Positions 15,916 through 32,889 of a stretch of 64,000 bases of DNA are shown here, piece after piece. The stretch lies in assembly GCF_014202435.1 (NCBI RefSeq), contig NZ_JACHGU010000001.1, positions 248,001 to 312,000 of the forward strand, written 5' to 3'. The stretch comes from Pseudoxanthomonas broegbernensis. GTDB taxonomy: Bacteria > Pseudomonadota > Gammaproteobacteria > Xanthomonadales > Xanthomonadaceae. The translations under genes and the position numbers were made by a program. The notes under the pieces are model-generated. The model was not told where the DNA came from. It made no database searches and saw only the letters and a list, made by a program, of their open reading frames with translations. How positions within the stretch are numbered: position 1 is the first letter of the stretch; every line of letters begins with the position of its first letter.

Positions 15916-16362
15916 GTGTTCCAGGGCGAGACCGCCATCACAGTGGACGACAAGGGGCGCGTGGCCATCCCCACGGCCTATCGCGACCTGGTCGCAGGCG
16001 CGTGCGGCAACCGCCTGGTGCTGACCTACAACCCGTTCGAGGCCGGCTGCCTGTGGCTGTACGCGGAGAAGGAATGGCAGCGGGTCCGCGACGAGGTCAT
16101 GGCCAAGCCCAACACCCAGCGCGTGGTCCGGGTCCTGCAGCAGAAGCTGGTCGGTTCCTCGGCCGTGCTGGAGCTGGACGCCAACGGCCGCATCGGCGTG
16201 CCTTCCAGCCACCGCAACGCGGTGGGCATCGAGAAGAAGGCGGTGCTGCTGGGCATGGGCGACAAGTTCGAACTGTGGAGCGAGCAGGCCCATCGCGCAT
16301 TGATCCAGCAGACGCTGTCTGACGGGGATCTGGGCGATGGATTGCTCGACCTGCGGTTGTGA
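15916..16362 (+). CDS. mraZ: MraZ, transcriptional repressor of the dcw cluster
   Basis: The 148-residue protein carries two AbrB-like SpoVT/MraZ halves. Each half has a DxxGR motif: [13 protein letters not shown] at about residues 11-23 and [13 protein letters not shown] at about 88-100. MraZ binds the phased repeats just upstream and represses its own operon. The start is a GTG at 15916 giving [15 protein letters not shown], the family N-terminus; the Shine-Dalgarno is weak. The TGA stop overlaps the rsmH start by 4 bp. Confidence 0.96.
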
Positions 16363-17354
16363 GCCGGGGTGCCCGGATGCGCGAACAGGCGCAGTCCGGT
16401 CACCCGGTGCCGCAGACGCCGGCGGCGCACCTGCCGGTGCTGTTCGCGCAGGTGATGGACGGGCTGCGGGTGATCGAGGACGGACGTTACCTGGACGGCA
16501 CCTTCGGGCGCGGCGGCCATGCGCGCGGGGTGCTGCAACGACTCGGCCCGGGAGGCCGGCTGCTGCTGATGGACAAGGACCCGGAAGCGATCGCGGAGGC
16601 CGAGGCCAGCTTCGGCGGCGATGCGCGCGTGTCGATCCGGCGCGGCAGCTTCGCCGCGCTCGGCGGCTGGGAGCAGGCGCAGGGCCTGGATGGCGTGCTG
16701 TTCGACCTGGGCGTGTCCTCGCCGCAGCTTGACCAGGCGCAGCGCGGCTTTTCCTTCGGCAAGGATGGCCCGCTGGACATGCGCATGGACCCGGAGTCGG
16801 GCCGGAGCGCGGCACAGTGGCTGGCGGACGCCGACGAGGCGGAGATCGCCGACGTGCTGTGGCGCTACGGCGAGGAGCGGCAGAGCCGGCGCATCGCCCG
16901 CGCCCTCGTCGCCCGCCGCGCACAGCAGCCGATCGAGCGCACCGCGCAACTGGCCGAGCTCATCGCCTCGGCCATGCCGCGCGGCAAATCCGGTGCCGAC
17001 AAGAGCCGGATCCACCCCGCCACCCGCAGCTTCCAGGCCATCCGCATCCACATCAACCGCGAGCTGGCCGACCTGGAGGCCGGGCTGGATGCGGCCCTGG
17101 CCGCGCTCAGGCCCGGCGGCCGGCTGGCGGTGATCAGCTTCCACTCGCTGGAGGACCGCATCGTCAAGCGCTTCGTCGCCGGCCACGCCAAGGCGCCGCC
17201 GGCCAACCGCCGGCTGCCCCCGGCGCAGGCCTTCGTGCCGGCGCTGGCCGCCATCGGCGGGGCGATCCGCGCCGAAGAGGACGAGCTGGCCGCCAACCCG
17301 CGCGCGCGCAGCGCGGTGCTGCGGGTGGCGCAGAAGCTGGAGCGACAGCCATGA
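16359..17354 (+). CDS. rsmH: 16S rRNA (cytosine-1402-N4)-methyltransferase
   Basis: RsmH (MraW) methylates N4 of C1402, the same base modified by RsmI encoded at 13916. The 331-residue SAM-dependent enzyme shows [28 protein letters not shown] (SAM loop), [12 protein letters not shown] and RGFSF. The C-terminal motif [18 protein letters not shown] is also typical. The GTG start at 16359 overlaps mraZ by 4 bp. An ATG at 16377 would shorten it by six residues and leave a gap, so I prefer the GTG. The stop overlaps ftsL by 4 bp. Confidence 0.96.
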
Positions 17355-17614
17355 GCCGCCTGCTGCTCGTCGCCCTGCTGCTGGCCACGGTGGGCAGCGC
17401 CATCGGCGTGGTCTACGAGCGCTACCGCCATCGCCAGTTGTTCGTCGATCTGACCCGGCTGGAGCGCGAGCGCGACGAGCTGAACATCGAGTTCGGCCGA
17501 CTGCAACTGGAGCAGGCCACCTGGGCGCAGGCCAACCGCATCGACCAGCTCGCCCAGTCGCGCCTGGGGATGAAGTTCCCCGAGGCCGACGACATCGTGG
17601 TGGTGCGGCCATGA
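17351..17614 (+). CDS. ftsL: Cell division protein FtsL
   Basis: This 87-residue bitopic protein of the FtsQLB complex acts at the septum. A transmembrane segment occupies about residues 3-20 ([19 protein letters not shown]). It is followed by a periplasmic coiled coil with leucine-zipper spacing ([20 protein letters not shown]). The C-terminal [15 protein letters not shown] matches the conserved FtsL end. Identification rests on position between rsmH and ftsI and on this topology, since FtsL sequences diverge strongly. It overlaps both neighbours by 4 bp. Confidence 0.93.
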
Positions 17615-19437
17615 GCGCACCCCGCAGCCACCGCCGCCGCGGCAGCTTCAGCCTGCGCAGCCGGCTGCTGCTGGTCGGCGCCGCGCTGGGCCTGGCCTCG
17701 GTGGCGCTGGTGGGCCGGGCGGCCTACGTGCAACTGGTGGACGCGGACTTCTACCAGCGCCAGGGCGAGGCGCGCTTCGTGCGCGAGATCCCGATCCCGA
17801 CCTCGCGCGGCATGATCACCGACCGCAACGGCGAGCCGGTGGCCGTGTCCACGCCGGTGGAATCGGTGTGGGGCAACCCGCAGGAGCTGCTGCGCCATCC
17901 CGACCGCCTGCCCGAGCTGGCGGCGGCCCTGGGCGTGCCGCTGGACCAGCTCACCAGCCGCCTGTCGCAGCGCGCGGACAAGGAGTTCGTCTACCTCAAA
18001 CGCCGGATCAACCCGGACCAGGCCCGGGCGATCCTGGCGCGCAACGTGCCGGGCGTGTTCTCGCAGCGCGAGTTCCGCCGCTTCTACCCCCAGGGCGAGG
18101 CGATGGCGCACGTGCTGGGCTTCACCAACATCGACGACCGCGGCCAGGAAGGGCTGGAGCTGGCCTTCGACGAATGGCTGCGCGGCAAGCCCGGCAGCAA
18201 GCGCGTGATCCGCGACCGCCACGGCCGCATCGTCGAGAACATCGACCTGGTGCGCGCCGCCGAGCCGGGCAAGGACCTGACCCTGAGCATCGACCGCCGG
18301 ATCCAGTTCCTGGCCTACCGCGAGCTGCGCAACGCGCTGACCGCGCACAAGGCCAGCAGCGGCTCGGTGGTGGTGCTGGACGTGGCCACCGGCGAGGTCC
18401 TGGCCATGGTCAACCTGCCCGGGTACAACCCCAACGCGGTCGCCGGCGGCGCCCAGGACGCCCACCGCAACCGCGCGGTGACCGACCTGGTCGAGCCCGG
18501 CTCGACGATGAAGCCGATCACCGTGGCCGCCGCGCTCAATGCCGGCAGGATCACCGCGGCCACGCGCTTCGACACCAGCCCCGGCTACATGGCGCTGGGC
18601 CGCTACACCATCCGCGACCACCGCAACTACGGGGTGCTGGACGTCACCGGCATCATCACCAAGAGTTCCAACCTGGGCTCGGTGAAGCTGTCCGAGCCGC
18701 TGCCCAACCAGTATTTCTACGACTTCATCCGCGGCTTCGGCTACGGCAGCGCCCCGCACAGCGGCTTTCCCGGCGAGGCGGCCGGGGTGCTGATGCCGCC
18801 GGCGCGGTGGAACGGCCTGACCAAGGCCACCATGTCCTACGGCTACGGCCTGTCGGCCACGCCGCTGCAGATCGCCCAGGCCTACGCGGCGCTGGGCAAC
18901 CATGGCCGGCTGATTCCCCCGACCTTCGTCAAGGGCCAGATCAACGAGCCGCGCCAGGCGGTCAGGCCGGAGATCGCCGACCAGGTGCTGGCGATGATGC
19001 AGACGGTGACCGAGCCGGGCGGCACCGCCACCCAGGCCGCGATCCTGGGCTACCACGTGGCCGGCAAGACCGGCACCGCGCGCCAGGCCGCGGCCGGCGG
19101 CTACGCGCGGCGCTACACCACCACCTTCGCCGGCCTGGTGCCGGCCTCCAACCCGCGCTTCGCCACCGTGGTGGTGATCAACGACCCGCAGAGCGGGTCC
19201 TATTTCGCCGGCCTGGTGTCGGCGCCGGTGTTCCGCAGCGTGATGGAGGATGCGCTGCGGCTGATGGACGTGGCGCCGGACGACATCGAGACCTGGCTGG
19301 CCGCCCAGGCCAAGGGCGAGGCCAGGCGGCAGGCGGCGGTGGCGCCGCTGCCGCAGGCGATCGAGGAGACGTTCGACGATTCGACCATCCCGCCGGCCAT
19401 GGCCGAGCTGGGCGCCGGCGACGGAGGGCGGCCATGA
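17611..19437 (+). CDS. ftsI: Peptidoglycan D,D-transpeptidase FtsI (PBP3)
   Basis: This septal class B penicillin-binding protein cross-links peptidoglycan at the division site together with FtsW. It has 608 residues: a cytoplasmic basic leader, one transmembrane anchor (about 18-40), a dimerisation domain starting at [19 protein letters not shown], and the transpeptidase domain. The active-site tetrad STMK lies in EPGSTMKPI, with SSN in TKSSNLGSV and KTGT in AGKTGTARQ. The length is close to E. coli FtsI (588 aa). ATG 17611 overlaps the ftsL stop. Confidence 0.97.
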
Positions 19438-20927
19438 AGCGCCAGGTACCGCTGTCGCTGCTCCTGCCCGACGTCGCGCTGCCGCGCGACATCGTCGTTT
19501 CCGGGCTGGCGATGGACAGCCGCCAGGTCGAGCCGGGCGACGCCTTCGTGGCCATCGACGGCTTCGGCGCGCACGGCCTGGCCTACGCCGGGCAGGCCCG
19601 CGACGCCGGCGCGGCCGCGATCCTGTTCGAGCCACCGGCGCCGGATGCGCACCCGGCGCCGGCCGACGCCATTGCCGTGCCCGGCCTGCGCGCGCGCCTG
19701 GGCGCGATGGGCGACCATTTCCATGGCCATCCCTCCCACGCGATGACGATGGTCGGGGTCACCGGCACCAACGGCAAGACCTCCACCGTGCAGTTGCTGG
19801 CCCAGGCCTGGCACTTGCGCGGCCTGCGCAGCGGCAGCATCGGCACGCTCGGCGCCGGGCGCCACGGCCAGGTGCGGCCGACCGGCTTCACCACCCCGCT
19901 GGTGCTGCGCATGCACGCGCTGCTGGGCGGGCTGCGCGACGAGGGCGTGCAGGCGGTGGCCATGGAGGTCAGCTCGCACGCGCTGGACCAGGGCCGGGTG
20001 GACGGCGTGCGCTTCGACGTGGCGGTGTTCACCAACCTCACCCGCGACCACCTGGACTACCACGGCGACATGGACGCCTACGGCGCGGCCAAGGCGCGGC
20101 TGTTCGCATGGCCGGGGCTGAAGGCGGCGGTGCTGAACCTGGACGACGCCTACGGCCGTCGCCTGCACGCGGCGCTGGCGCCGGATGTACGGGCGGTGGG
20201 CATCAGCTCGCGCGGCCAGGCGGATGCGCGCCTGCGTGCCGAGGAAGTGCGGATGGACGGCCGCGGCATCGCCTTCGAACTGGTGGACGGCGGGCAGTCG
20301 CATCCGGTGCGCTCGCCGCTGCTGGGAAGGTTCAACGTCGACAACCTGCTGGCGGTGGCCGGTGTCATGCATGCGCTGGGCGATGCGCCGGACGCCATCG
20401 CCGCGACCCTGTCGCGGCTGCAGCCGGTGCCCGGGCGCATGAACCGCCTCGGCGGCGACGGTGCGCTGCCCCTGGTGGTGATCGACTACGCGCACACGCC
20501 CGATGCGCTGGAACAGGCCCTTGAGAGCCTGCGCGCGCACGCCGCCGCGCGGCTGGTGTGCGTGTTCGGCTGCGGCGGCGAGCGCGACCGCGGCAAGCGT
20601 CCGCAGATGGCGCGGATCGCCGAGCGGCGCGCCGACCTGGTGATCGTCACCGACGACAACCCGCGCGGCGAGGACGGCGATGCGATCGTGGCCGACATCG
20701 TCGCCGGCTTCGACGCGCCCGCCGGCGCGGCGGTCGAGCGCGACCGCGCCCGCGCCATCGCCCGCGCCATCGGCCAGGCCGGCCCGGACGACATCGTGCT
20801 GGTCGCCGGCAAGGGCCACGAGCCCTACCAGGAGGTGGCCGGCGTGCGCCATCCCTTCGACGACACCCAGGTGGCGCGCGCGGCGCTGGACGCGCGTGCC
20901 GCGCCTGCGCCGGAGGGCCGGGCATGA
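19434..20927 (+). CDS. murE: UDP-N-acetylmuramoyl-tripeptide synthetase MurE (meso-diaminopimelate type)
   Basis: This cytoplasmic ATP-dependent ligase adds the third residue to UDP-MurNAc-dipeptide. The 497-residue protein has the P-loop [11 protein letters not shown] near residue 106, [10 protein letters not shown] and [11 protein letters not shown]. The specificity motif DNPR is present in [10 protein letters not shown], which marks enzymes that add meso-diaminopimelate rather than lysine. Homology and the four-base overlap with ftsI both support ATG 19434. Its dipeptide substrate normally comes from MurD, which is not encoded in this cluster. Confidence 0.97.
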
Positions 20928-22360
20928 ACCGCCTCCCGCTCTCGCTGATCGCGCACTGGGCCGGCGGCGAACTGCACGGCGAGGACGTGGCGGTGGACGC
21001 CATCGTCCACGACACCCGCGCGCTGGCCGCCGGCGGCTTGTACGTGGCGCTGCGCGGCGAGCGCTTCGACGGCCACGACTTCGCCGCCGAGGCGGTGGCC
21101 CGCGGCGCGGTGGCGCTGCTGGTCGAGCGCCCGCTGCAGGTGGAGGCGCCGCAGGTGGTGGTGGCCGACAGCCAGCGCGCGCTGGCCGGCATTGCCGCCG
21201 GCCTGCAGCGCGACCGCCCGGCCCGGGTGGTCGCCATCACCGGCAGCAACGGCAAGACCACGGTCAAGGCGCTGGTGCTGTCGATCCTGCAGCGCGCCGG
21301 CAAGGCGTATGCCAACCCCGGCAACCGCAACAACGAGATCGGCCTGCCGCTGGCGGTGATCGACGCGCCCGAGGATGCCGACTTCGCCGTCTACGAGATG
21401 GGCGCCGGCAAGCCCGGCGACATCGCCTACCTGGCCGCAGTGGCGCCGCCGCACGTGGCCCTGGTCAACAACGTCGCCGCCGCGCACCTGGAGCGGATGG
21501 GCAGCCTGCTGGGCGTGGCCCGGACCAAGGGCGCGATCTACCAGGCCCTGGGCGAAGGCGGGGTGGCGGTGGTCAACGCCGACGACGCCTTCGGCGCGTG
21601 GTTCGAGCAGGAGGCGATCGGCGCCGCCGACGGTGGACGCCGGGTGCTGCGCTTCGGCCTGGAGAGCGGCGCCGAGGTGAGCGCGCGCGACATCCGCGCC
21701 GCCGGGGACGGCAGCCGCTTCGTGCTGGTCGCCCCGCAGGGCGAGGCCGAGGTGGCGCTGGCGCTGCCCGGCCGCCACAACCTGCGCAACGCGCTGGCCG
21801 CCGCCGCCATCGCCCTGGCCTGCGAAGTGCCGCTGGCGGTCATCGCCGCCGGGCTGGCCCAGGCGCGGCCGGTGCCGGGCCGGCAGGTGGCGCACGCGCT
21901 GGCGGGCGGTATCCAGCTCGTCGACGACAGCTACAACGCCAACCCGGGCTCGCTGGCGGCCGCCATCCAGACCCTGGCGGCCTGCGGCGGCGAAGGCTGG
22001 CTGGTGCTGGGCGACATGCGCGAACTCGGCCCCGACGCCGAGGCGCTGCACGCACAGGCCGGCCGCCACGCGCGCGAGGCCGGGCTGTCCCGGCTGTATG
22101 CGCTCGGTCCGCTGAGCGCGGCGGCCGCGGGCGCCTTCGGCGAGGGTGGCCGGGTGTTCGCCAGCCATGCGGAACTGGCCGCGGCGCTGCGGGCGGACAT
22201 CGGCGCGGCCGGGAGCCGGGAAGCGAAGGGCCAGGCGCAGGTGGACGGCGGCGTGCCGCGGCCGCTGCCGACCGTGCTGGTGAAGGGGTCGCGCGGCAGC
22301 GCGATGGATCGGATCGTGAACGCGCTGCTGGCGCAAGGGGACGCTACGGATGCTGCTTGA
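20924..22360 (+). CDS. murF: UDP-N-acetylmuramoyl-tripeptide-D-alanyl-D-alanine ligase MurF
   Basis: MurF attaches the D-Ala-D-Ala made by Ddl (encoded at 27281) to complete the muramoyl pentapeptide. The 478-residue ligase shows [22 protein letters not shown] in the N-domain, P-loop [11 protein letters not shown] near residue 106, [11 protein letters not shown], and [14 protein letters not shown] in the C-terminal domain. It overlaps murE by 4 bp and mraY by 11 bp, the largest overlap in the cluster. Confidence 0.97.
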
Positions 22361-23435
22361 ACTGGCGCGCTGGCTGCAGGGACTGGAGAACTTCTTCGGC
22401 CTGTTCGGCTACCTGACCTTCCGCGGCATCCTGGCGGCGCTGACGGCGCTGTTCCTGTCGCTGTGGTGGGGGCCGGCGGTGATCCGCAGGCTCGGCCAGC
22501 TCAAGGGCGGCCAGCCGATCCGCAAGGACGGCCCGCAGTCGCACTTCTCCAAGGCCGGCACGCCGACCATGGGTGGGGCGCTGATCCTGTTCACCGTGCT
22601 GGCCTCGGTGCTGCTGTGGGGCGACCTGCGCAACAAGTACGTGTGGACGGTGCTGCTGGTGATGCTGGCCTACGGCGCCATCGGCTGGTACGACGACTGG
22701 ATCAAGATCGTGCGGCGCGACCCCAACGGCCTGAAGTCGCGCTGGAAGTACCTGCTGCAGTCGGTCTTCGGGCTGGCCGCCGGCCTGTACCTGTACCTGT
22801 ACGCCGACGTGCCGGCGGCCACCACGTTCTACGTGCCGCTGTTCAAGTCCATCGCCTTGCCGCTGGCGGGGGTGGGCTTCGTGGCCATCGCCTACTTCTG
22901 GATCGTCGGCTTCTCCAACGCGGTCAACCTCACCGACGGCCTGGACGGGCTGGCGATCATGCCCACCGTGCTGGTCGCCTGCGGCCTGGGCGTGTTCGCC
23001 TATGCCTCGGGCAACGCGGTGTTCTCCAACTACCTGCAGATCCCGCAGGTGCCCGGCGCCGGCGAGCTGACCATCATCTGCGCGGCCATCGCCGGGGCGG
23101 GGCTGGGCTTCCTGTGGTTCAACACCTACCCGGCGATGGTGTTCATGGGCGACATCGGCGCGCTGGCGCTGGGCGCGGTGCTGGGCGCCATCGCGGTGAT
23201 CGTGCGCCAGGAGCTGGTGCTGGTGGTCATGGGTGGCATCTTCGTCATCGAGACCCTGTCGGTGATGATCCAGGTGGCCTCGTTCAAGCTCACCGGCAAG
23301 CGCGTGTTCCGGATGGCGCCGATCCACCACCACTTCGAGCTGAAGGGCTGGCCGGAGCCGCGGGTGATCGTCCGCTTCTGGATCATCTCGGTGATCCTCG
23401 TGCTGGTCGGCCTGGCCACGCTGAAGGTGCGCTGA
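22350..23435 (+). CDS. mraY: Phospho-N-acetylmuramoyl-pentapeptide transferase MraY
   Basis: This polytopic inner-membrane enzyme transfers phospho-MurNAc-pentapeptide to undecaprenyl phosphate, forming lipid I. It has 361 residues (E. coli 360) and about ten membrane segments. Conserved motifs are [11 protein letters not shown] (residues ~68), [21 protein letters not shown] with the catalytic aspartates, and [15 protein letters not shown] near the C-terminus. Its TGA stop shares one base with the ftsW ATG, leaving no room for the murD that sits here in E. coli. Confidence 0.98.
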
Positions 23436-24763
23436 TGAACGACCTCTCGCGCCAGGCGACCCGGCTGGAGGCCATCGGCGGCCGCTACGACCCGTGGCTG
23501 TACGGCGCGGTGGCGGCGCTGGCCTGCCTGGGCGTGGTGATGGTCGCCTCGGCCTCGATCGCCGTGGGCGAGAACCTGGGCGTGGGCCCGTTCCACTACC
23601 TGGTGCGGCACGTGTTCTTCGTCGCCGTCGGCATCGGCCTGGCGGTCGTGGCCATGCGCACCGAGCTGAAGACGGTGGAAAGGTACAACCAGCTCCTGCT
23701 GCTGGGCTGCGTGGTGCTGCTGGTGCTGCCGTGGCTGCCGGGCCTGGGCGTGAGCGTCAACGGCGCCCGGCGCTGGATCAACCTGGGCCTGTCGCGGTTC
23801 CAGGTGGTGGAGGCGGTGAAGGTGCTCTACATCGTCTGGCTGGCCAGCTACCTGGTGCGCTTCCGCGACGAGGTCAACGCCACCTGGGCGGCGATGCTCA
23901 AGCCGCTGGGCGTGGCCGTGCTGCTGGTGGGCATGCTGCTGGCCCAGCCCGACTTCGGCTCGGCCACGCTGCTGCTGGCGATCACCGCCGGCATGCTGGT
24001 GCTGGGCGGGGTGAACCTGCCGCGGATGTCGCTGCCGGTGGTGATCGGCCTGCCCCTGCTGGCGGCGGTGGCCATCTTCGAGCCGTACCGCATGCGCCGC
24101 ATCACCTCGTTCCTGGACCCGTGGGCCGACCAGCTCGGCTCGGGCTACCAGTTGAGCAACGCGCTGATGGCGGTGGGCCGCGGCGAATGGTTCGGCGTGG
24201 GCCTGGGCGCCTCGGTGCAGAAGCTCAACTACCTGCCCGAGGCGCATACCGATTTCATCTTCTCGGTGATCGCCGAGGAACTGGGCTTCGCCGGTGTGTG
24301 CACGGTGGTGGGGCTGTACGCGCTGCTGGTGGGCCGTGCCCTGTACCTGGGCCTGAAGTGCGTGGAGATGCGCCGCCATTTCCCCGGCTACGTGGCGTTC
24401 GGCGTGGGCCTGTGGATCGGCATGCAGAGCTTCGTGTCCATCGGCGTCAACCTGGGCGTGCTGCCGACCAAGGGCCTGACCCTGCCGCTGGTGTCCTCCG
24501 GCGGCTCCAGCGTGATGATGACCTGCGTGGCCATCGGCCTGCTGCTGCGCGTGTCCTACGAACTGGATCGCGCCGAGCGGCAGGTCGCGCGCCTGCGCCA
24601 GGATGCCGCGCCGGCGGAGCCCGCCGACGAATCCCCGACCGTGGCGCCGGTGTCCGCCGGTGCCTACCGCAGCGCGGTGCGGGGCGCTGCGGCGAGTGCG
24701 CCGGTCGCCAGGCACGGGCGCGGCACCTCGCGGGTCGAGCCGACCTTCGGGGGCTTCGCATGA
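23435..24763 (+). CDS. ftsW: Septal peptidoglycan polymerase FtsW (SEDS family)
   Basis: FtsW polymerises lipid II glycan strands at the septum in partnership with FtsI. The 442-residue protein has about ten membrane helices, preceded by a cytoplasmic leader. SEDS signatures include [53 protein letters not shown] and [14 protein letters not shown] ~60-residue Ala/Arg/Pro-rich cytoplasmic tail ends the protein. It directly follows mraY, and its stop overlaps murG by 4 bp. Confidence 0.97.
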
Positions 24764-25848
24764 ACGGTCGCCCGGTGATGGTGATGGCCGGCGGCACCGG
24801 CGGGCACATCTTCCCGGCGCTGGCCGTGGCCGACGAACTGCTCGCGCGCGGTGTGCCGGTGGTGTGGCTGGGCGCGGCCGGGGCGATGGAGACGCGGCTG
24901 GTGCCGCGGCACGGCATCGAGATCGATACGCTGCCCATCGCCGGGGTGCGCGGCAAGGGCGCGCTGGCGCTGCTGGGCGCGCCGCTGGCGCTGCTGCAGG
25001 CGGTCAACGCCGCGCGCGCGGCGCTGCGCCGGCGCCGGCCGCGGGCGGTGATCGGCTTCGGCGGCTTCGCTTCCGGGCCCGGCGGGCTGGCGGCGCGGCT
25101 GGCCGGGCTGCCGCTGCTGGTGCACGAACAGAACCGCGCGCCGGGCCTGACCAACCGGGTACTGGCACGGGTCGCCCGGCGCACGCTGGCCGGCTTTCCC
25201 GGCAGCTTCGCCCGCGAGGAAGTCACCGGCAACCCGGTGCGCGCGCAGATTGCCGCGCTGCCACCGCCCGGCGAGCGTCTGGCAGGCCGCGAAGGCCCCC
25301 TGCGCCTGCTGGTGCTGGGCGGCAGCCAGGGCGCGCGCGCGCTCAACCAGGCCCTGCCGCGCGCGCTGGCCGCGCTCGCCGGCACGGCGATCCGGGTGCG
25401 CCACCAGTGCGGGGAAAAGCTGCACGACGAGGCCGTGCGCGCCTACGCCGAGGCCGGGGTGGAGGCCGCGGTGGAGGCGTTCATCGCCGACATGGCCGCC
25501 GCCTACGCCTGGGCCGACCTGGTGGTGTGCCGCGCCGGCGCCTCGACCCTGGCCGAACTGTGCGCGGCCGGCGTGGGCAGCGTGCTGGTGCCGTTCGCCG
25601 CCGCGGTCGACGACCACCAGACCCGCAACGCCGAGTACCTGGTCGAGCACGGCGCCGCGCGGCTGCTGAAGCAGGACGCGGACCTGGCTGCGAACCTGGA
25701 ACCCGTGCTGCGCGCCCTGGCCGCCGACCCGGCGCGCCGGCTGGCGATGGCCCAGGCCGCGCGCACGCTGGCCCGCCCCGACGCGGCCGCGCGCATCGCC
25801 GGCATCGTCCTCGAAGAATCCCTCACCGAACCTGGAGCTTGCGCATGA
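24760..25848 (+). CDS. murG: UDP-GlcNAc:lipid I N-acetylglucosaminyltransferase MurG
   Basis: MurG adds GlcNAc to lipid I at the inner face of the membrane to make lipid II. The 362-residue GT-B enzyme has the glycine-rich loop [17 protein letters not shown] at residues 9-25, [25 protein letters not shown], and the C-domain [12 protein letters not shown] and [15 protein letters not shown]. It overlaps ftsW and murC by four bases each. The length matches E. coli MurG (355 aa). Confidence 0.97.
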
Positions 25849-27284
25849 TCCGCCGCCTCGACGACACCGACGACCTGGTGCGCGCCTTCCCGCGCGTGCA
25901 CTTCGTCGGCATCGGCGGCACCGGCATGAGCGGCATCGCCGAGGTGATGCTGACCCTGGGCTACGAGGTGTCCGGCTCGGACACCGCCGACAACGCCGCC
26001 ACCCGCCGCCTGGTGCGGCTGGGCGCGCGCATCGTCCGCGGCCACTCGGCGGCCAACGTGCTGGGCACCGACTGCGTGGTGGTCTCCAGCGCCATCCGCG
26101 AGGACAACCCCGAGCTGATGGAGGCACGCAGCCAGCGCATCCCCATCGTGCCGCGCGCGGCGATGCTGGCCGAGCTGATGCGCTTCCGCCGCGGAATAGC
26201 GGTGGCCGGCACCCACGGCAAGACCACCACCACCAGCCTGGCCGCCGCGGTGCTCAGCGAGGGCGGGCTGGACCCGACCTTCGTCATCGGCGGGCAGCTG
26301 CTGGCCGCCGGCGCCAACGCCAAGCTCGGCGGCGGCCGCTGGCTGGTGGCCGAGGCCGACGAGAGCGACGGCAGCTTCCTGCGCCTGAGCCCACTGGTGG
26401 CGGTGATCACCAACATCGACGCCGACCACCTGGAGAACTACGGCGGCGACTTCGCCCGCCTGCAGTCGGCCTTCGACGAATTCCTCAAGCGCCTGCCGTT
26501 CTACGGCCTGGCGGTGCTGTGCATCGACGACCCGGAAGTGGCCGCGCTGGCCGCGCGCACGCCCCGCCACGTGATGACCTACGGCACCGCCGCGGGCGCG
26601 GACGTGCGCGCCGACGACATCGTCCAGGACGGCGGCCGCATGCGCTTCACCCTGCGCCTGCCCGAGGGCGCGACGGTGCCGGTGACCCTGGCGCTGCCGG
26701 GCCGCCACAACGTGCTCAACGCCCTGGCGGCGGCGGCGGTGGCGTGGCAACTGGGGGTGCCCTCGGCAAGCATCGCCTCGGCGCTGGAGAAGTTCGCCGG
26801 CATCGGCCGGCGCTTCAACGACCTGGGCGAGGTGGCCACCGCGGCCGGCGCGCGCGTGCGCATCGTCGACGACTACGGACACCACCCGAAGGAACTGGCC
26901 GCGGTGCTGGCCGCCGCCCGCGGAGGCTGGCCGGACCGGCGCCTGGTGGTGGCCTTCCAGCCGCACCGCTACACCCGCACCCGCGACCAGTTCGACGCCT
27001 TCGCCGCGGTGCTGTCGGAAGCCGACGCGCTGGTGCTCAGCGAGGTCTACCCGGCCGGCGAGGCGCCGATCCCCGGGGCCGACGCGCGCGCCCTGGCCCG
27101 CGCCATCCGCGCCCGCGGCCGCAGCGAGCCGGTGGTGGTCGGGCAGGTGGCCGACCTGGCCCAGGTGCTGCCCGACGTGCTGCAGGACGGCGACCTGCTG
27201 CTGATGATGGGCGCCGGCGACATCGGCTACATCGCCCAGCAGATCGCCAGCGAGGGTTTCGCCGCCGCCGGAGGCCAGGCATGA
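25845..27284 (+). CDS. murC: UDP-N-acetylmuramate-L-alanine ligase MurC
   Basis: MurC is the first muramyl ligase, joining L-Ala to UDP-MurNAc. The 479-residue product shows the Rossmann-like [17 protein letters not shown], the P-loop [14 protein letters not shown] near residue 121, [13 protein letters not shown] and [15 protein letters not shown]. The length fits the family (~470-490). It lies between murG and ddlB with four-base overlaps on both sides. The next ligase in the pathway (MurD or MurD2) is not encoded in the window. Confidence 0.97.
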
Positions 27285-28234
27285 GCGCGCACCTGCCGCC
27301 GCCGCGCGCCAGCGACCCGGCGCTGTTCGGCCGCGTCGCCGTGCTCCTGGGCGGCACCAGTTCCGAGCGCGAGGTCTCGCTGGACTCGGGCCGCAACGTG
27401 CTGGAGGCGCTGCGCGCGCGCGGCGTGGACGCGCACCCGGTCGACGGCATCGCGGCACTGGTGGCGGCGCTGGCGGAAAAGCGCTTCGACCGCGTGTTCA
27501 ACATCCTCCACGGCCAGCGCGGCGGCGGCGAGGACGGCGTGGTCCAGGGCCTGATGGAGGCGCTGGGCGTGCCCTACACCGGCTCGGGCGTGCTCGGCTC
27601 GGCGCTGGCGATGGACAAGATCAGGACCAAGCAGGTGTGGCTGTCGCTGGGCCTGCCCACGCCGGGCTACGTGCGCCTGGCGCGTGGCGTGGACGCGGCG
27701 ACCGTGCACGCGGCCGCGCGCGACCTGGGCCTGCCGGTGATCGTCAAGCCGTCCTCGGAAGGGTCCAGCGTCGGCGTGTCGCGGGTGCCGGACGAAGCGG
27801 GCCTGGACGGCGCGGTGGAGCTGGCCGCGCGCTACCCGGGCGAGCTGCTGATGGAGCGGATGGTGGTCGGCGACGAGTTGACCGTCGGCATCCTCGGCGA
27901 CGTGGCGCTGCCGTCGATCCGGATCGTGCCCAAGGGCTGGTACGACTATCACGCCAAGTACCGGGCCGACGACACCCAGTACCTGTGCCCGGGCCTGGAC
28001 GCGGCCGGCGAGGCGCAGGTCGGCGCGCTGGCGCTGGCCGCGTTCCGCGCGGCCGGCTGCGGCGGCTGGGGCCGGGTGGACCTGATGCGCGACCGCGGCA
28101 CGGGCGCGTTCTTCCTGCTGGAGGTGAACACCGCGCCGGGCATGACCAGCCACTCGCTGGTGCCCAAGGCCGCCGGCCAGGTCGGCGTCGGCTTCGAGGA
28201 ACTGTGCTGGCGGATCCTGGAGCAGACGCTATGA
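27281..28234 (+). CDS. ddlB: D-alanine-D-alanine ligase
   Basis: This ATP-grasp enzyme makes the D-Ala-D-Ala dipeptide used by MurF. The 317 residues are typical of DdlB. Motifs are [19 protein letters not shown] at the N-terminus, [32 protein letters not shown] in the ATP-grasp core and [18 protein letters not shown] with the metal-binding Glu/Asn. ATG 27281 overlaps murC; its own stop overlaps ftsQ. Confidence 0.97.
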
Positions 28235-29061
28235 ACGCCGTCCTGCGCATCCTGGCCTGGCTGCTGGCGGTGGCGCTGGTCGCCGCGCCGGTGGTGGCCG
28301 TGCTCAACGGCTGGGTCGGCGCCGAGCGCTGGCCGCTGTCGCGCCTGCGCGTGACCGGCCAGTTCGAGCGCGTCCAGGCCGAGCAGGTGCGCCAGGTACT
28401 GGCGCAGCACGCGCGTACCGGCTACTTCGCGGTGCGGCTGTCGCAGGCCCAGCGCGCGGTCGAGCAACTGCCGTGGGTGGAGAGCGCGGTGGTGCGCAAG
28501 CAGTGGCCCGACGTGCTGGAAGTGCAGGTGGTCGAACATCGGCCGTTCGCGCGCTGGGGCACGGACCGGCTGCTGTCCGAGCGCGGCCGCCTGTTCCCCT
28601 TGCCGCAGGACCTGGCCGACGCGCACCTGCCGTGGCTGGACGGTCCCGATGCGCGCACCGCCGAGGTGGTGGCGCTGTACGACCAGACCCGCGCCCTGTT
28701 CGCGCCGCTGGGCTACGGCGTGGCGCGCCTGGGCATGGACGCGCGCGGGAGCTGGTCGCTGGTGCTGGACAACGGCACCGTGGTGGTGATCGGGCGCCAC
28801 GACGCGCGCGCGCGCCTGGCCCGCTTCGTGCGCGTGCTGCCGCAGTTGCTGGTCCGGCATGCGCGCCCGCTGCAGCGCGCGGACCTGCGCTACACCAATG
28901 GTTTCGCCCTGGAATGGGCGAAGCCGGGGGCGGGGACCGGGGGCCGGGGGACGGGAGGGGCGATGGCCGCCGCCGCTCCGGTCCGCCGCGCATTCCCCGG
29001 CCCGGCTTCCACAACGCCCGTTTCCCGCTTCCCGTTCCCCGTTCCCGGCTCCCAAACATGA
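28231..29061 (+). CDS. ftsQ: Cell division protein FtsQ with a low-complexity C-terminal extension
   Basis: This bitopic divisome protein has a transmembrane anchor (about residues 8-28). It is followed by a POTRA domain ([15 protein letters not shown] and onward) and an FtsQ beta domain with [31 protein letters not shown] split over ~30 residues. Recognisable FtsQ ends at about NGFALEW (residue 230). The last ~46 residues are Gly/Ala/Pro-rich and derive from G-rich DNA (28927-28961) and a C-rich 7-nt tandem repeat (29022-29053). Translation of ftsA begins inside the last codons. The tail is probably dispensable, but that is inference. Confidence 0.93.
28927..29053 (+). repeat. G-run tract and C-rich 7-nt tandem repeat at the ftsQ 3' end
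   Basis: At 28927-28961 six runs of 3-5 guanines occur within 35 nt on the coding strand, enough for a G-quadruplex. At 29022-29053 the units TTCCCGC, TTCCCGT, TCCCCGT, TCCCGGC and TCCC follow on a 7-nt period. The two tracts are roughly complementary. The C-rich tract ends five bases before the ftsA ATG and occupies its Shine-Dalgarno position. Confidence 0.7.
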
Positions 29062-30293
29062 ACCGCAAAGGCGACAAGTCCCTCATCGTCGGTCTCGACA
29101 TCGGCACCTCCAAGGTGGTGGCGCTGGTGGGCGAGTACTCGCCGGGCAACCCGATCGAGGTGATCGGCATCGGTTCCCACGAATCGCGCGGGCTCAAGCG
29201 CGGCGTGGTGGTGGACATCGAGTCGACCGTGCAGTCGATCCAGCGCGCGGTCGAGGAGGCCGAGCTGATGGCCGGCTGCGAGATCCGCTCGGTCTACGCC
29301 TCGATCTCCGGCAACCACGTGCAGTGCAAGAACTCGCCGGGCATCGTCCCGATCCGCGACGGCGAGGTCACCTGGGCCGACCTGGACCGGGTGCTGGACG
29401 CGGCCAAGGCGGTGGCGATCCCGGCCGACCAGCGCATCCTCCACGCGATCCCGCGCGAGTACGTGCTGGACGACTCCCAGGAGGACATCCGCAACCCGGT
29501 TGGCATGACCGGCGTGCGCCTGGAGGTGCATGCGCACCTGGTCACCTGCGCGCAGTCGGCCGCGCAGAACATCACCAAGTGCGTGCAGCGCTGCGGCCTG
29601 CAGGTGGACGACCTGATCCTGTCCTCGCTGGCTTCCTCGGTGGCGGTGCTGACCGCCGACGAGCGCGAGCTGGGCGTGGTGCTGGTGGACCTGGGCGCGG
29701 GCACCACCGACATCGCCGTGTTCGTGCAGGGCGCGATCTGCCACACCGCCTCGCTGCCCATCGCCGGCGACCACGTCACCAACGACATCGCCCACATGCT
29801 GCGCACGCCCACGCCGGAGGCCGAGCAGATCAAGGTGCGCTACGCCTGCGCGCTGGCGCAGTTGGCCACCGCCGAGGAAAGCATCCAGGTGCCCAGCGTC
29901 GGCGACCGGCCGCCGCGGCGGATGCCGCGCGCCTCGCTGGCGCAGGCGGTGCAGGGCCGCTACGAGGAGATCTTCGAGATGGTCCAGGCCGAGCTGCGCC
30001 GCTCCGGGTTCGAGGAGCTGGTGCGCGCGGGCATGGTCCTGACCGGCGGCGCCTCGAAGATGGAAGGCGTGATCGAGCTGGCCGAGGAGATGCTGCAGAT
30101 GCCGGTGCGCATCGGCATCCCGCAGCACGTCAGCGGCCTGGGCGAGGTGGTGGGCAACCCGGTCCACGCCAGCGGCGTGGGCCTGCTGCTGATGGGCAGC
30201 CAGATCGAGCACCCGCGCCGGCCGTCGCTGCCCAGCGGCCGGGCGGGCAGTTTCTTCAAGAAGCTGCGCAACTGGTACCGCGGCGAGTTCTGA
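29058..30293 (+). CDS. ftsA: Cell division protein FtsA
   Basis: This actin-like ATPase tethers FtsZ filaments to the membrane. The 411-residue protein begins with [19 protein letters not shown] (phosphate-1), has [13 protein letters not shown] (phosphate-2) near residue 215 and [18 protein letters not shown] (adenosine loop). It ends with the amphipathic membrane-targeting helix [17 protein letters not shown] 29058 overlaps the ftsQ stop. The 35 nt upstream are nearly pure pyrimidine with no Shine-Dalgarno, so initiation probably depends on ribosomes finishing ftsQ. ftsZ follows after 184 bp. Confidence 0.98.
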
Positions 30294-30302
30294 CGATGTA
30301 CC

Positions 30303-30325
30303 CCGCGGCGCGTGGAACGCCGCGG
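30303..30325 (+). repeat. Perfect 8-bp hairpin in the ftsA-ftsZ spacer
   Basis: CCGCGGCG (30303-30310) pairs with CGCCGCGG (30318-30325) around a CGTGGAA loop, 10 bp after the ftsA stop. There is no T-run, so it is more likely an RNA stability or processing structure than a terminator. Confidence 0.6.
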
Positions 30326-30330
30326 CTGCC

Positions 30331-30352
30331 GTAGGAGCGGCATGGCCGCGAC
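30331..30352. repeat. REP-like element of the 'GTAGGAGCGGCATGGCCGCGAC' class
   Basis: Starting at 30331, GTAGGAGCGGCATGGCCGCG is a compact palindromic unit (GCGGCATGGCCGC core). It resembles a widespread xanthomonad extragenic motif and lies in the ftsA-ftsZ spacer, right after the 30303 hairpin. Confidence 0.55.
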
Positions 30353-30477
30353 AGAAGGAAGGGAAGGCGGAAGCGAGTCAACAGGCAATACCGGAAGGCC
30401 CCAAGGCGACAACGCAGTACCCCGACAAGAACGCCGGAGCACAGAAAGCCGGCACGAATAATCAGAGGACAACGGAC

Positions 30478-31731
30478 ATGGCACATTTCGAACTGATCGA
30501 GAAGATGGCTCCCAACGCGGTGATCAAGGTCATCGGCGTGGGCGGCGGCGGCGGCAACGCCGTGGCGCACATGGTCAACAGCAGCGTGGACGGGGTGGAG
30601 TTCATCACCGCCAACACCGACTCGCAGGCGATCAAGAACTGCGGCGCCAAGCTGCAGTTGCAGCTCGGCGACAACGTCACCAAGGGCCTGGGCGCGGGCG
30701 CCAACCCGGAGGTCGGCCGCCAGGCCGCGCTGGAGGACCGCGAGCAGATCATCGCCGCGCTGGACGGCGCGGACATGGTGTTCATCACCGCCGGCATGGG
30801 CGGCGGCACCGGCACCGGCGCGGCGCCGGTGGTGGCGCAACTGGCCAAGGAGATGGGCATCCTCACCGTGGCCGTGGTCACCAAGCCGTTCCCGTTCGAG
30901 GGCCGCCGGCGCATGCAGGTGGCGCTGAAGGGCATCGAGGAGCTGAGCCAGCACTGCGACTCGCTGATCACCATCCCCAACGAGAAGCTGATCACCGTGC
31001 TGGGGCGCAACGCGACCATGGTGCAGGCGTTCCGCGCCGCCAACGACGTGCTGCAGGGCGCGGTGCAGGGCATCGCCGACCTGATCGTGCGCCCGGGCCT
31101 GATCAACGTCGACTTCGCCGACGTGCGCACGGTGATGAGCGAGATGGGCCTGGCGATGATGGGCACCGGCACCGCGCGCGGCGACGACCGCGCCCAGGCC
31201 GCGGCCGAGTCGGCGATCCAGAACCCGCTGCTGGACGACGTCAACCTGGCCGGCGCCAACGGCATCCTGGTCAACATCACCGCCGGCCCGGACTTCACCA
31301 TGGCCGAGTTCGACGAGATCGGCCGCACCGTCGAGGGCTTCGCCTCGGAGGACGCGACCGTGGTGGTGGGCACCGTGCTCGACCCGGAGATGCAGGACGA
31401 GGTGCGGGTGACCGTGGTCGCCACCGGCCTGAACCGCTCCGTGGCGCGGCAGCCGGTGCGCGGCGGCGACGCCGGCCGTGCCGAATTCGGCCTGCGCGAG
31501 CCGGCGCGCGCGCCCGTGCGCCTGGTCCGCGACGGCACCACCGGCCTGCCGATCGACGAAGGCTTCAACGCCGACCCGGTGGCCGGTGCGGTCGGCGGCC
31601 TGGGCCTGCGCCGCAGCGGCACCGCGGGCGCGGCGGCGGCCACGTCGTCGCCGGCCAGCGCGCCGGTGCCCGCCGAGCTGCCCAGCGACTACCTGGACAT
31701 TCCCGCTTTCCTGCGCCGCCAGGCCGACTGA
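30478..31731 (+). CDS. ftsZ: Cell division protein FtsZ
   Basis: This tubulin-like GTPase forms the Z ring. It has 417 residues: [13 protein letters not shown] at the N-terminus, tubulin signature [13 protein letters not shown] near residue 104, [11 protein letters not shown] with the T7-loop aspartate, a variable Ala-rich linker (about 320-400), and a C-terminal peptide [14 protein letters not shown] that binds FtsA and ZipA. An AGAGGA Shine-Dalgarno lies ~8 nt before ATG 30478. Unlike the upstream cluster it has its own 184-bp leader, so it may be separately expressed. A strong hairpin terminator follows at 31798. Confidence 0.99.
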
Positions 31732-31797
31732 TCCCGTGTTGCCCGGAAGGCGCGCCCGCCAAGCGCGCCGCGGTTTCCGGAAGTCCGTGGTTCCTTG

Positions 31798-31828
31798 CTG
31801 CCGGGCCTTCGCGGGCCCGGCAGGTTTT
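31798..31828 (+). terminator. Rho-independent terminator after ftsZ
   Basis: CTGCCGGGCC (31798-31807) pairs perfectly with GGCCCGGCAG (31814-31823) around TTCGCG, followed by GTTTT. It closes the dcw transcript 67 bp after the ftsZ stop. Confidence 0.75.
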
Positions 31829-31895
31829 CCCCGCGTGCGCCAGCCTGCGGGCGGTGCGCGGCCCCGGCGCTTGCGACGGGATTCAGGCCCGCGCG

Positions 31896-31904
31896 TGATA
31901 TTCT
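31896..31904 (+). promoter_or_regulatory. Extended -10 promoter of lpxC
   Basis: TGATATTCT fits TGnTATAAT and lies between the ftsZ terminator and lpxC, giving a ~67-nt leader. No good -35 is seen (TTGCGA at 31871 is 22 bp away). Confidence 0.5.
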
Positions 31905-31977
31905 CGGCACTTCGCGTTCCCAACGCTTCACGCGACCCGGCCCGGTCCTTCCCGGACCCGGCGCCCAGCCTCCAACG

Positions 31978-32889
31978 ATGACCCGGCAGCGCACCCTCAA
32001 GAACACCATCCGTGCCACCGGCGTCGGCCTGCACAGCGGCAACAAGGTCTACATGACCCTGCGCCCGGCCCCGGACGACCACGGCATCGCCTTCCGCCGC
32101 ACCGACCTGGAGCCGGCGGTGGAGGTGCCCGCGGCCGCCGGCCTGGTCACCGAGACCACGCTGTGCACCGGCCTGAGCCGCGGCGCGGCCAAGATCCAGA
32201 CCGTCGAGCACCTGATGTCGGCCGCCGCCGGCCTGGGCATCGACAACATGATGGTGGAGCTGTCCTCGGCCGAGCTGCCGATCATGGACGGCTCCGCCGG
32301 TCCCTTCGTGTTCCTGCTGCAGTCGGCCGGCATCGTCGAGCAGGACGCGCCCAAGCGCTTCATCCGCATCCTGCGCGAGGTGGAGGTGCGCGACGGCGAC
32401 AAGATCGCCCGCTTCGCCCCGCACGACGGCTACCGGCTGGACTTCACCATCCAGTTCGACCACCCGATGATCCCGGCCAAGCAGTCGCACCACCGCCTGG
32501 AGTTCTCCACCGCCGCCTACATCCAGGAGATTTCGCGCGCCCGCACCTTCGGCTTCATGCGCGACCTGGAGTACATGCGCGAGCTCAACCTCGGCCTGGG
32601 CGGCTCGATGGACAACGCCATCGTCCTGGACGAGTTCCGCGTGCTCAACGACGACGGCCTGCGCTACGCCGACGAGTTCGTGCGCCACAAGATCCTCGAT
32701 GCCATCGGCGACCTGTACCTGGTCGGCGGCCCGATCCTGGGCGCCTACGAGGGCTACAAGTCGGGGCACGCGCTCAACAACAAGCTCGCCCGCGCCCTGC
32801 TGGCCGATGCCGGCGCCTGGGAGAAGGTGAGCTTCGAGGAGGCCGGTGCGGCCGCGCCCCTGGCCTACGGCACCACCGCGCTGGCCTGA
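31978..32889 (+). CDS. lpxC: UDP-3-O-acyl-N-acetylglucosamine deacetylase
   Basis: This zinc-dependent deacetylase catalyses the first committed step of lipid A synthesis. The length of 303 residues is typical. Motifs include [16 protein letters not shown] at the N-terminus, zinc-ligand region [11 protein letters not shown], the downstream [10 protein letters not shown] and the catalytic C-terminal [13 protein letters not shown]. The start ATG 31978 lacks a Shine-Dalgarno. It has its own promoter and is separated from ftsZ by a terminator. LpxC is usually controlled by FtsH proteolysis; the C-terminus here ([10 protein letters not shown]) ends in hydrophobic residues, compatible with that. 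Confidence 0.98.

Follow-up and report, generated by a model that had tools for sequence, protein, structure and literature searches.

In E. coli, the dcw cluster carries murD between mraY and ftsW. In X. oryzae, the D-Glu of peptidoglycan comes from the MurD2-MurL route (XOO_1320 and XOO_1319), and a review aligns E. coli MurD residues Asp182, Lys348, Ala414, and Leu416 with Glu197, Arg358, Pro433, and Phe435 of X. oryzae MurD2 (PMC8788868). According to the same review, the MurD2 mutants E197D and R358K had altered specificity, and the double mutant was switched completely (PMC8788868); MurL was found to convert ATP to AMP, and its discoverers proposed an adenylate intermediate (PMC8788868). 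In another paper, MurL is described as having no known conserved domains (PMC5808125). Other routes into the wall are also on record; for Vibrio fischeri, a further report describes the broad-spectrum racemases RacD and BsrF as able to feed peptidoglycan (PMC12502697).

The dcw Cluster Without murD

The window analyzed here is a stretch of 64,000 nucleotides (C1:248001-312000) on the 806 kb contig C1 of a genome in 32 contigs. Its plus strand carries a dcw cluster from mraZ to lpxC (15916..32889; ORFs, tblastn, and profile searches), in which 14 of the 16 dcw proteins of E. coli queried by tblastn have a counterpart, arranged as in E. coli: mraZ, rsmH, ftsI, murE, murF, mraY, ftsW, murG, murC, ddl, ftsQ, ftsA, ftsZ, and lpxC. 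The two clusters share this order for the 14 genes found, but that of the window has no murD, and mraY runs into ftsW. The mraY ORF (22350..23435, plus strand; TIGR00445, 437 bits, cut-off 192.05) and the ftsW ORF (23435..24763, plus strand; TIGR02614, 421 bits against 337.5) have base 23435 in common, as the last letter of the mraY TGA (23433-23435) and the first of the ftsW ATG (23435-23437), leaving no room for a gene; ftsW, directly after mraY, thus occupies the place of E. coli murD. The 3′ end of murF (20924..22360, plus strand; start from tblastn, end from the ORF) overlaps the mraY start by 11 bases, and murG (24760..25848, plus strand; tblastn, end from the ORF) begins with an ATG at the ftsW stop. 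With the E. coli MurD query, tblastn gave no dcw counterpart between mraY and ftsW of the window.

The original prediction, that murD is absent from this cluster with mraY abutting ftsW and that no other ligase of the window is MurD, is borne out on both points. The weaker matches of the murD profile in the window are murE (19506..20927, plus strand; tblastn-matched part to the stop, so that the start is approximate, with the end from the ORF; TIGR01085, 488.1 bits), murF (TIGR01143, 431 bits; a Mur ligase, not MurD), and murC (25893..27284, plus strand; start likewise approximate, end from the ORF; TIGR01082, 543.4 bits). One more weak match, on contig C5, is Mpl, the murein tripeptide recycling ligase (G000:C5:108093-109169, L004; 494.6 bits against 388.7). 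E. coli FtsL likewise gave no tblastn match at 1e-6 in the window; between rsmH and ftsI, positions 17354-17611 leave room for a short gene, and FtsL found no match there. The gap in the cluster alone means that the gene is not in that place; it is not proof of the MurD2-MurL route.

A murL-murD2 Pair on the Same Contig

Across the whole genome, the murD profile gave one match over cut-off (G000:C1:400173-401483), outside the window. This MurD-family gene lies 88 kb past the window end on the same contig, and its protein reaches about 303.5-303.8 bits with TIGR01087 (cut-off 211.95). By that profile and its diagnostic residues the gene is assigned as murD2 (G000:C1:400143-401537, an ORF of 464 aa). 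Just upstream, with an overlap of 20 bases, is murL (G000:C1:398720-400162, an ORF of 480 aa), whose product scores 781.8 bits against the curated cut-off of 700 for the equivalog NF041275 and spans the model from position 2 to 446 of 447. Upstream of murL stands a gene for a bifunctional aspartate kinase/diaminopimelate decarboxylase (1369.4 bits against 802), and about 1 kb downstream of murD2, on the opposite strand, is an octaprenyl-diphosphate-synthase-like gene (370.3 bits against a model cut-off of 412).

Aligned with E. coli MurD, the MurD2 of the window organism carries Glu, Arg, Pro, and Phe where E. coli has D182, K348, A414, and L416. The same residues prevail among relatives. An alignment that took in 36 of 39 MurD matches (G063, G018, and G007 were left out) holds 34 rows from MurL-bearing genomes, two of them from one genome; the 358 position is Arg in all 34, the 197 position Glu in 33 (Asp in G016), the 433 position Pro in 33 (Ala in G020), and the 435 position Phe in 31 and Tyr in three. 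Beyond these, at least 588 stretches from named organisms matched murL, of which 586 were confirmed and the best 80 kept. A MurD2 match adjoins murL in 77 of these best 80 of at least 586 loci, and residues were counted for 75 of the 77 (two were left out): 68 have the set ERPF, four ERPY, two ER with gaps, and one DRPF, the 358 position being Arg in 75/75. These residues, together with the partner gene, make it very probable that the MurD2 of the window organism uses L-Glu.

Other sources of D-Glu were sought in two families, MurI and D-amino-acid transaminase. Glutamate racemase MurI (TIGR00067) had no match at E ≤ 0.001 in the whole genome. No protein passed the cut-off for D-amino-acid transaminase (TIGR01121; best 139.5 bits against 277.45), and the sole match of that model is the branched-chain transaminase IlvE (TIGR01122, 368.9 bits against 245.55).

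The organism, a member of the Xanthomonas/Lysobacter order, very probably relies on the MurD2-MurL route for its peptidoglycan D-Glu, as the original prediction had proposed; the genome-wide search that it called for, run with MurD, MurL, and MurI profiles, returned a murL-murD2 pair, no MurI match, and a single MurD-family gene of MurD2 type. By analogy with the published X. oryzae enzymes, from which the activities of both proteins are predicted, MurD2 would add L-Glu to the cell-wall building block, and MurL would then epimerize the terminal L-Glu to D-Glu, spending ATP to AMP. Like X. oryzae, the organism has the two genes adjoining, the same diagnostic residues, and no MurI match; the route is already published for this group, of which the organism is a further case. 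That a canonical, D-Glu-adding MurD has simply been relocated from the dcw cluster, with D-Glu coming from a racemase or transaminase, would fit a protein that clears the murD-model cut-off, but each of the four discriminating residues is as in MurD2, murL overlaps the gene, and neither a MurI match nor a transaminase match other than IlvE was found, which makes such a relocation very improbable. Still less credible is an artefact of assembly or annotation behind the murD gap: the genome is indeed split into 32 contigs, but mraY and ftsW share their base within a single long contig, and a ligase is present elsewhere on that contig.

Distribution of MurL and MurI

Among 200 genomes of the order, MurL was matched in 191, 82 of these over cut-off, and the survey suggests that the MurD2-MurL route is the norm across the order. 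Few of its genomes have a MurI over cut-off (3/200 and 4/397), with matches under cut-off in a further 54 of the 200. In a sample of the phylum, MurL was matched in 20/398 genomes, 10 in this order, 10 marked as same phylum only, and none marked as same class only; this is not in conflict with the published distribution. From viral contigs, 17 stretches fitted the MurL pattern and none was confirmed by tblastn. In family f11 (G030 and G011; L073-L076), murL and murD2 lie on separate contigs, away from the contig ends, and the pair is therefore not always adjacent. A TGA flagged inside the MurL of G011 was dismissed, as it is either the gene's terminal codon or a stop immediately before it; the MurL genes of G021 and G109 carry the same flag.

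A Likely PP-Loop Assignment for MurL

SGGxDS-type motifs are the form found in PP-loop ATP pyrophosphatases. In MurL, the motif GGGKDS is unchanged across alignments of 11, 15, and 79 sequences, and it was not part of the search patterns behind the largest of these. The same alignments also show five invariant Cys, four of them late in the protein and one elsewhere; among the 79 sequences this conservation partly reflects selection, since the search pattern held three of those Cys. When a profile of 15 MurL sequences was searched against PDB, TtuA, itself a PP-loop enzyme, took the four top places, aligned at GGGKDS (lowest E 0.0013), and the family's form of the motif is visible in TtuA. Single-sequence MurL searches of NCBIfam and Pfam gave ThiI, MnmA, and TtuA among the matches, all at E 0.018 or worse, with four other Pfam families above ThiI.

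As a control, 95 E. coli proteins were scored with a 94-sequence MurL profile. The six PP-loop enzymes among them, picked beforehand, ranked 1, 2, 3, 4, 6, and 8, at E values from 0.0006 to 2.5, of which only those of TtcA (0.0006) and MnmA (0.034) were under 0.05, and two unrelated proteins were within the top eight. With hhalign the six ranked 1, 2, 3, 5, 7, and 8, the TilS alignment lying off the motif. With QueC, represented by a profile of nine sequences of which three do not have the Cys, hhalign placed the MurL Cys region on the QueC Cys region, not on the motif, with a P of 0.0068 and a probability of 5.6%. The spacing in MurL of the window organism is C-x15-C-x2-C-x2-C, late in the protein, compared with C-x2-C-x2-C, also set late, in E. 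coli QueC.

MurL resembles TtcA, TtuA, and QueC in its PP-loop-like motif but differs from them in having about 150 residues ahead of the motif, no significant full-length match, and an epimerization reaction. By these profile matches, weak but recurrent, MurL is likely a relative of the PP-loop ATP pyrophosphatases, and a QueC-like zinc site is plausible. The assignment fits the reported conversion of ATP to AMP and the adenylate that the discoverers proposed. QueC adenylates a carboxylate. If MurL is a PP-loop enzyme, possibly with a zinc site like that of QueC, it would adenylate the carboxylate of its substrate, and this could let the alpha proton exchange before hydrolysis.

Relatives Without MurL and a Candidate Reversion to the D-Glu Route

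Nine of the 200 genomes gave no MurL match. Seven of them also had no MurD match at 1e-40, and because these are assemblies of 110-680 contigs and 65-99% completeness, the missing MurL and MurD are read as assembly gaps; MurL may truly have been lost in some of the seven. Against the reading as gaps, three of these (G042, G092, and G132) have weak, full-length-like MurI-family matches (46.6-72.6 bits against a cut-off of 146.65), G092 with an additional match of 25.2 bits, but similar weak matches occur in relatives of family f7 that have MurL. The eighth genome, G019, at first seemed a second revertant: MurL is missing, MurI scores over cut-off, and between mraY and ftsW is a MurD of the canonical type. 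It was dropped and treated as apparently outside the order, as its RpoB and dcw cluster look foreign: the comparable half of its RpoB (about 540 residues) shows 58-60% identity both with E. coli and with six genomes of the order, whose full-length RpoB, not a like-for-like comparison, is 65-69% identical to E. coli and at least 68% to one another, and some 1.2 kb separate murC from ddl, as though a further gene lay between them. G019 (L067, L096, L097) is filed in the order; the RpoB match falls in two open frames. Two further genomes with MurI over cut-off, G121 and G394, were set aside because they retain MurL. G121 (L071:3032-5819; L072:4618-9424) carries both MurL and MurD2 along with a MurI that has the two Cys motifs, and beside the MurI gene stand an unassigned gene and, next, methyltransferase- and glycosyltransferase-like genes; in G394 (L104:3929-4558), the matched part of the MurI-family protein does not include the first Cys motif.

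The remaining genome is G119, whose only congener in the sample is G020, with an RpoB 92% identical. G020 has a sensor kinase, the aspartate kinase/decarboxylase, murL, and murD2 in this order; G119 has the sensor kinase and the aspartate kinase/decarboxylase (each 76% identical to G020) and then murD, about 80 bases past the decarboxylase stop (L069:7363-11412). By tblastn no murL remnant was found at this locus, and MurL had no match anywhere in the G119 genome. The order decarboxylase-murL-murD2 is common to the window organism and G020, and G119 is therefore suggested to be the derived state. The G119 MurD shares 61% identity with G020 MurD2, and the two group together with 100/99 support, separate from E. 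coli MurD, in a tree whose outgroup consists of E. coli and G019 only, on long branches, and in which G119 was flagged for odd letter make-up; the terminal branches are 0.39 for G119 and 0.22 for G020. Identity and tree together indicate that G119 MurD is a descendant of MurD2.

At the 358 position, G119 has Lys (codon AAA) and G020 has the codon CGT, so that a single base error cannot account for the Lys, a residue seen there in 0/34 other MurD rows from MurL-bearing genomes and in 0/75 named loci among the best 80. A nearby conserved Asp, present in 33/34 others, is Val. G119 keeps Glu197, and because of this the switch might be partial. G119 also has a MurI (220 bits) with both Cys motifs, which are catalytic in this enzyme. 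Together with an amidotransferase-like gene, it lies in a stretch of about 2.3 kb with no match in G020 (L070:3495-5766), flanked by sequence matching G020 at 69-81%. Farther along, G020 has about 2.3 kb beyond G119, and the region is therefore variable.

Read parsimoniously, it looks as if G119 gained MurI, lost murL, and turned its ligase back to D-Glu. The combined proposal is somewhat favored: that the MurD2-MurL route is reversible, the G119 lineage having deleted murL, gained MurI with the amidotransferase-like gene, and returned MurD2 to D-Glu through Arg358 to Lys, and that MurL belongs to the PP-loop enzymes and has a QueC-like zinc site, features that would explain its ATP-to-AMP chemistry. 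It is less likely, if far from negligible, that G119 MurD is still an L-Glu ligase, with an unrecognised epimerase in place of MurL and MurI serving another purpose. In favor of this alternative, Glu197 is kept, so that of the two specificity-switching residues only Arg358 is changed, the case comes from one genome (60 contigs, 98% complete), and the MurI that G121 has along with its intact MurL-MurD2 pair means that a MurI gene alone is no proof of use in the wall. Against an unswitched ligase count the absence of murL from its place and from the genome, a MurI with both motifs in a stretch missing from the sister genome, and a Lys found in none of the other rows or named loci.

Among the literature matches listed, which comprised titles and abstract openings with subscription papers mostly outside scope, there was no report of a reversion of the MurD2-MurL route or of a PP-loop assignment for MurL. 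The latter would put a protein described as having no known domains into a family with known adenylation chemistry. If confirmed, G119 would parallel in nature the published change of MurD2 stereospecificity and would mean that a lineage can abandon the MurD2-MurL way of making D-Glu after acquiring it.
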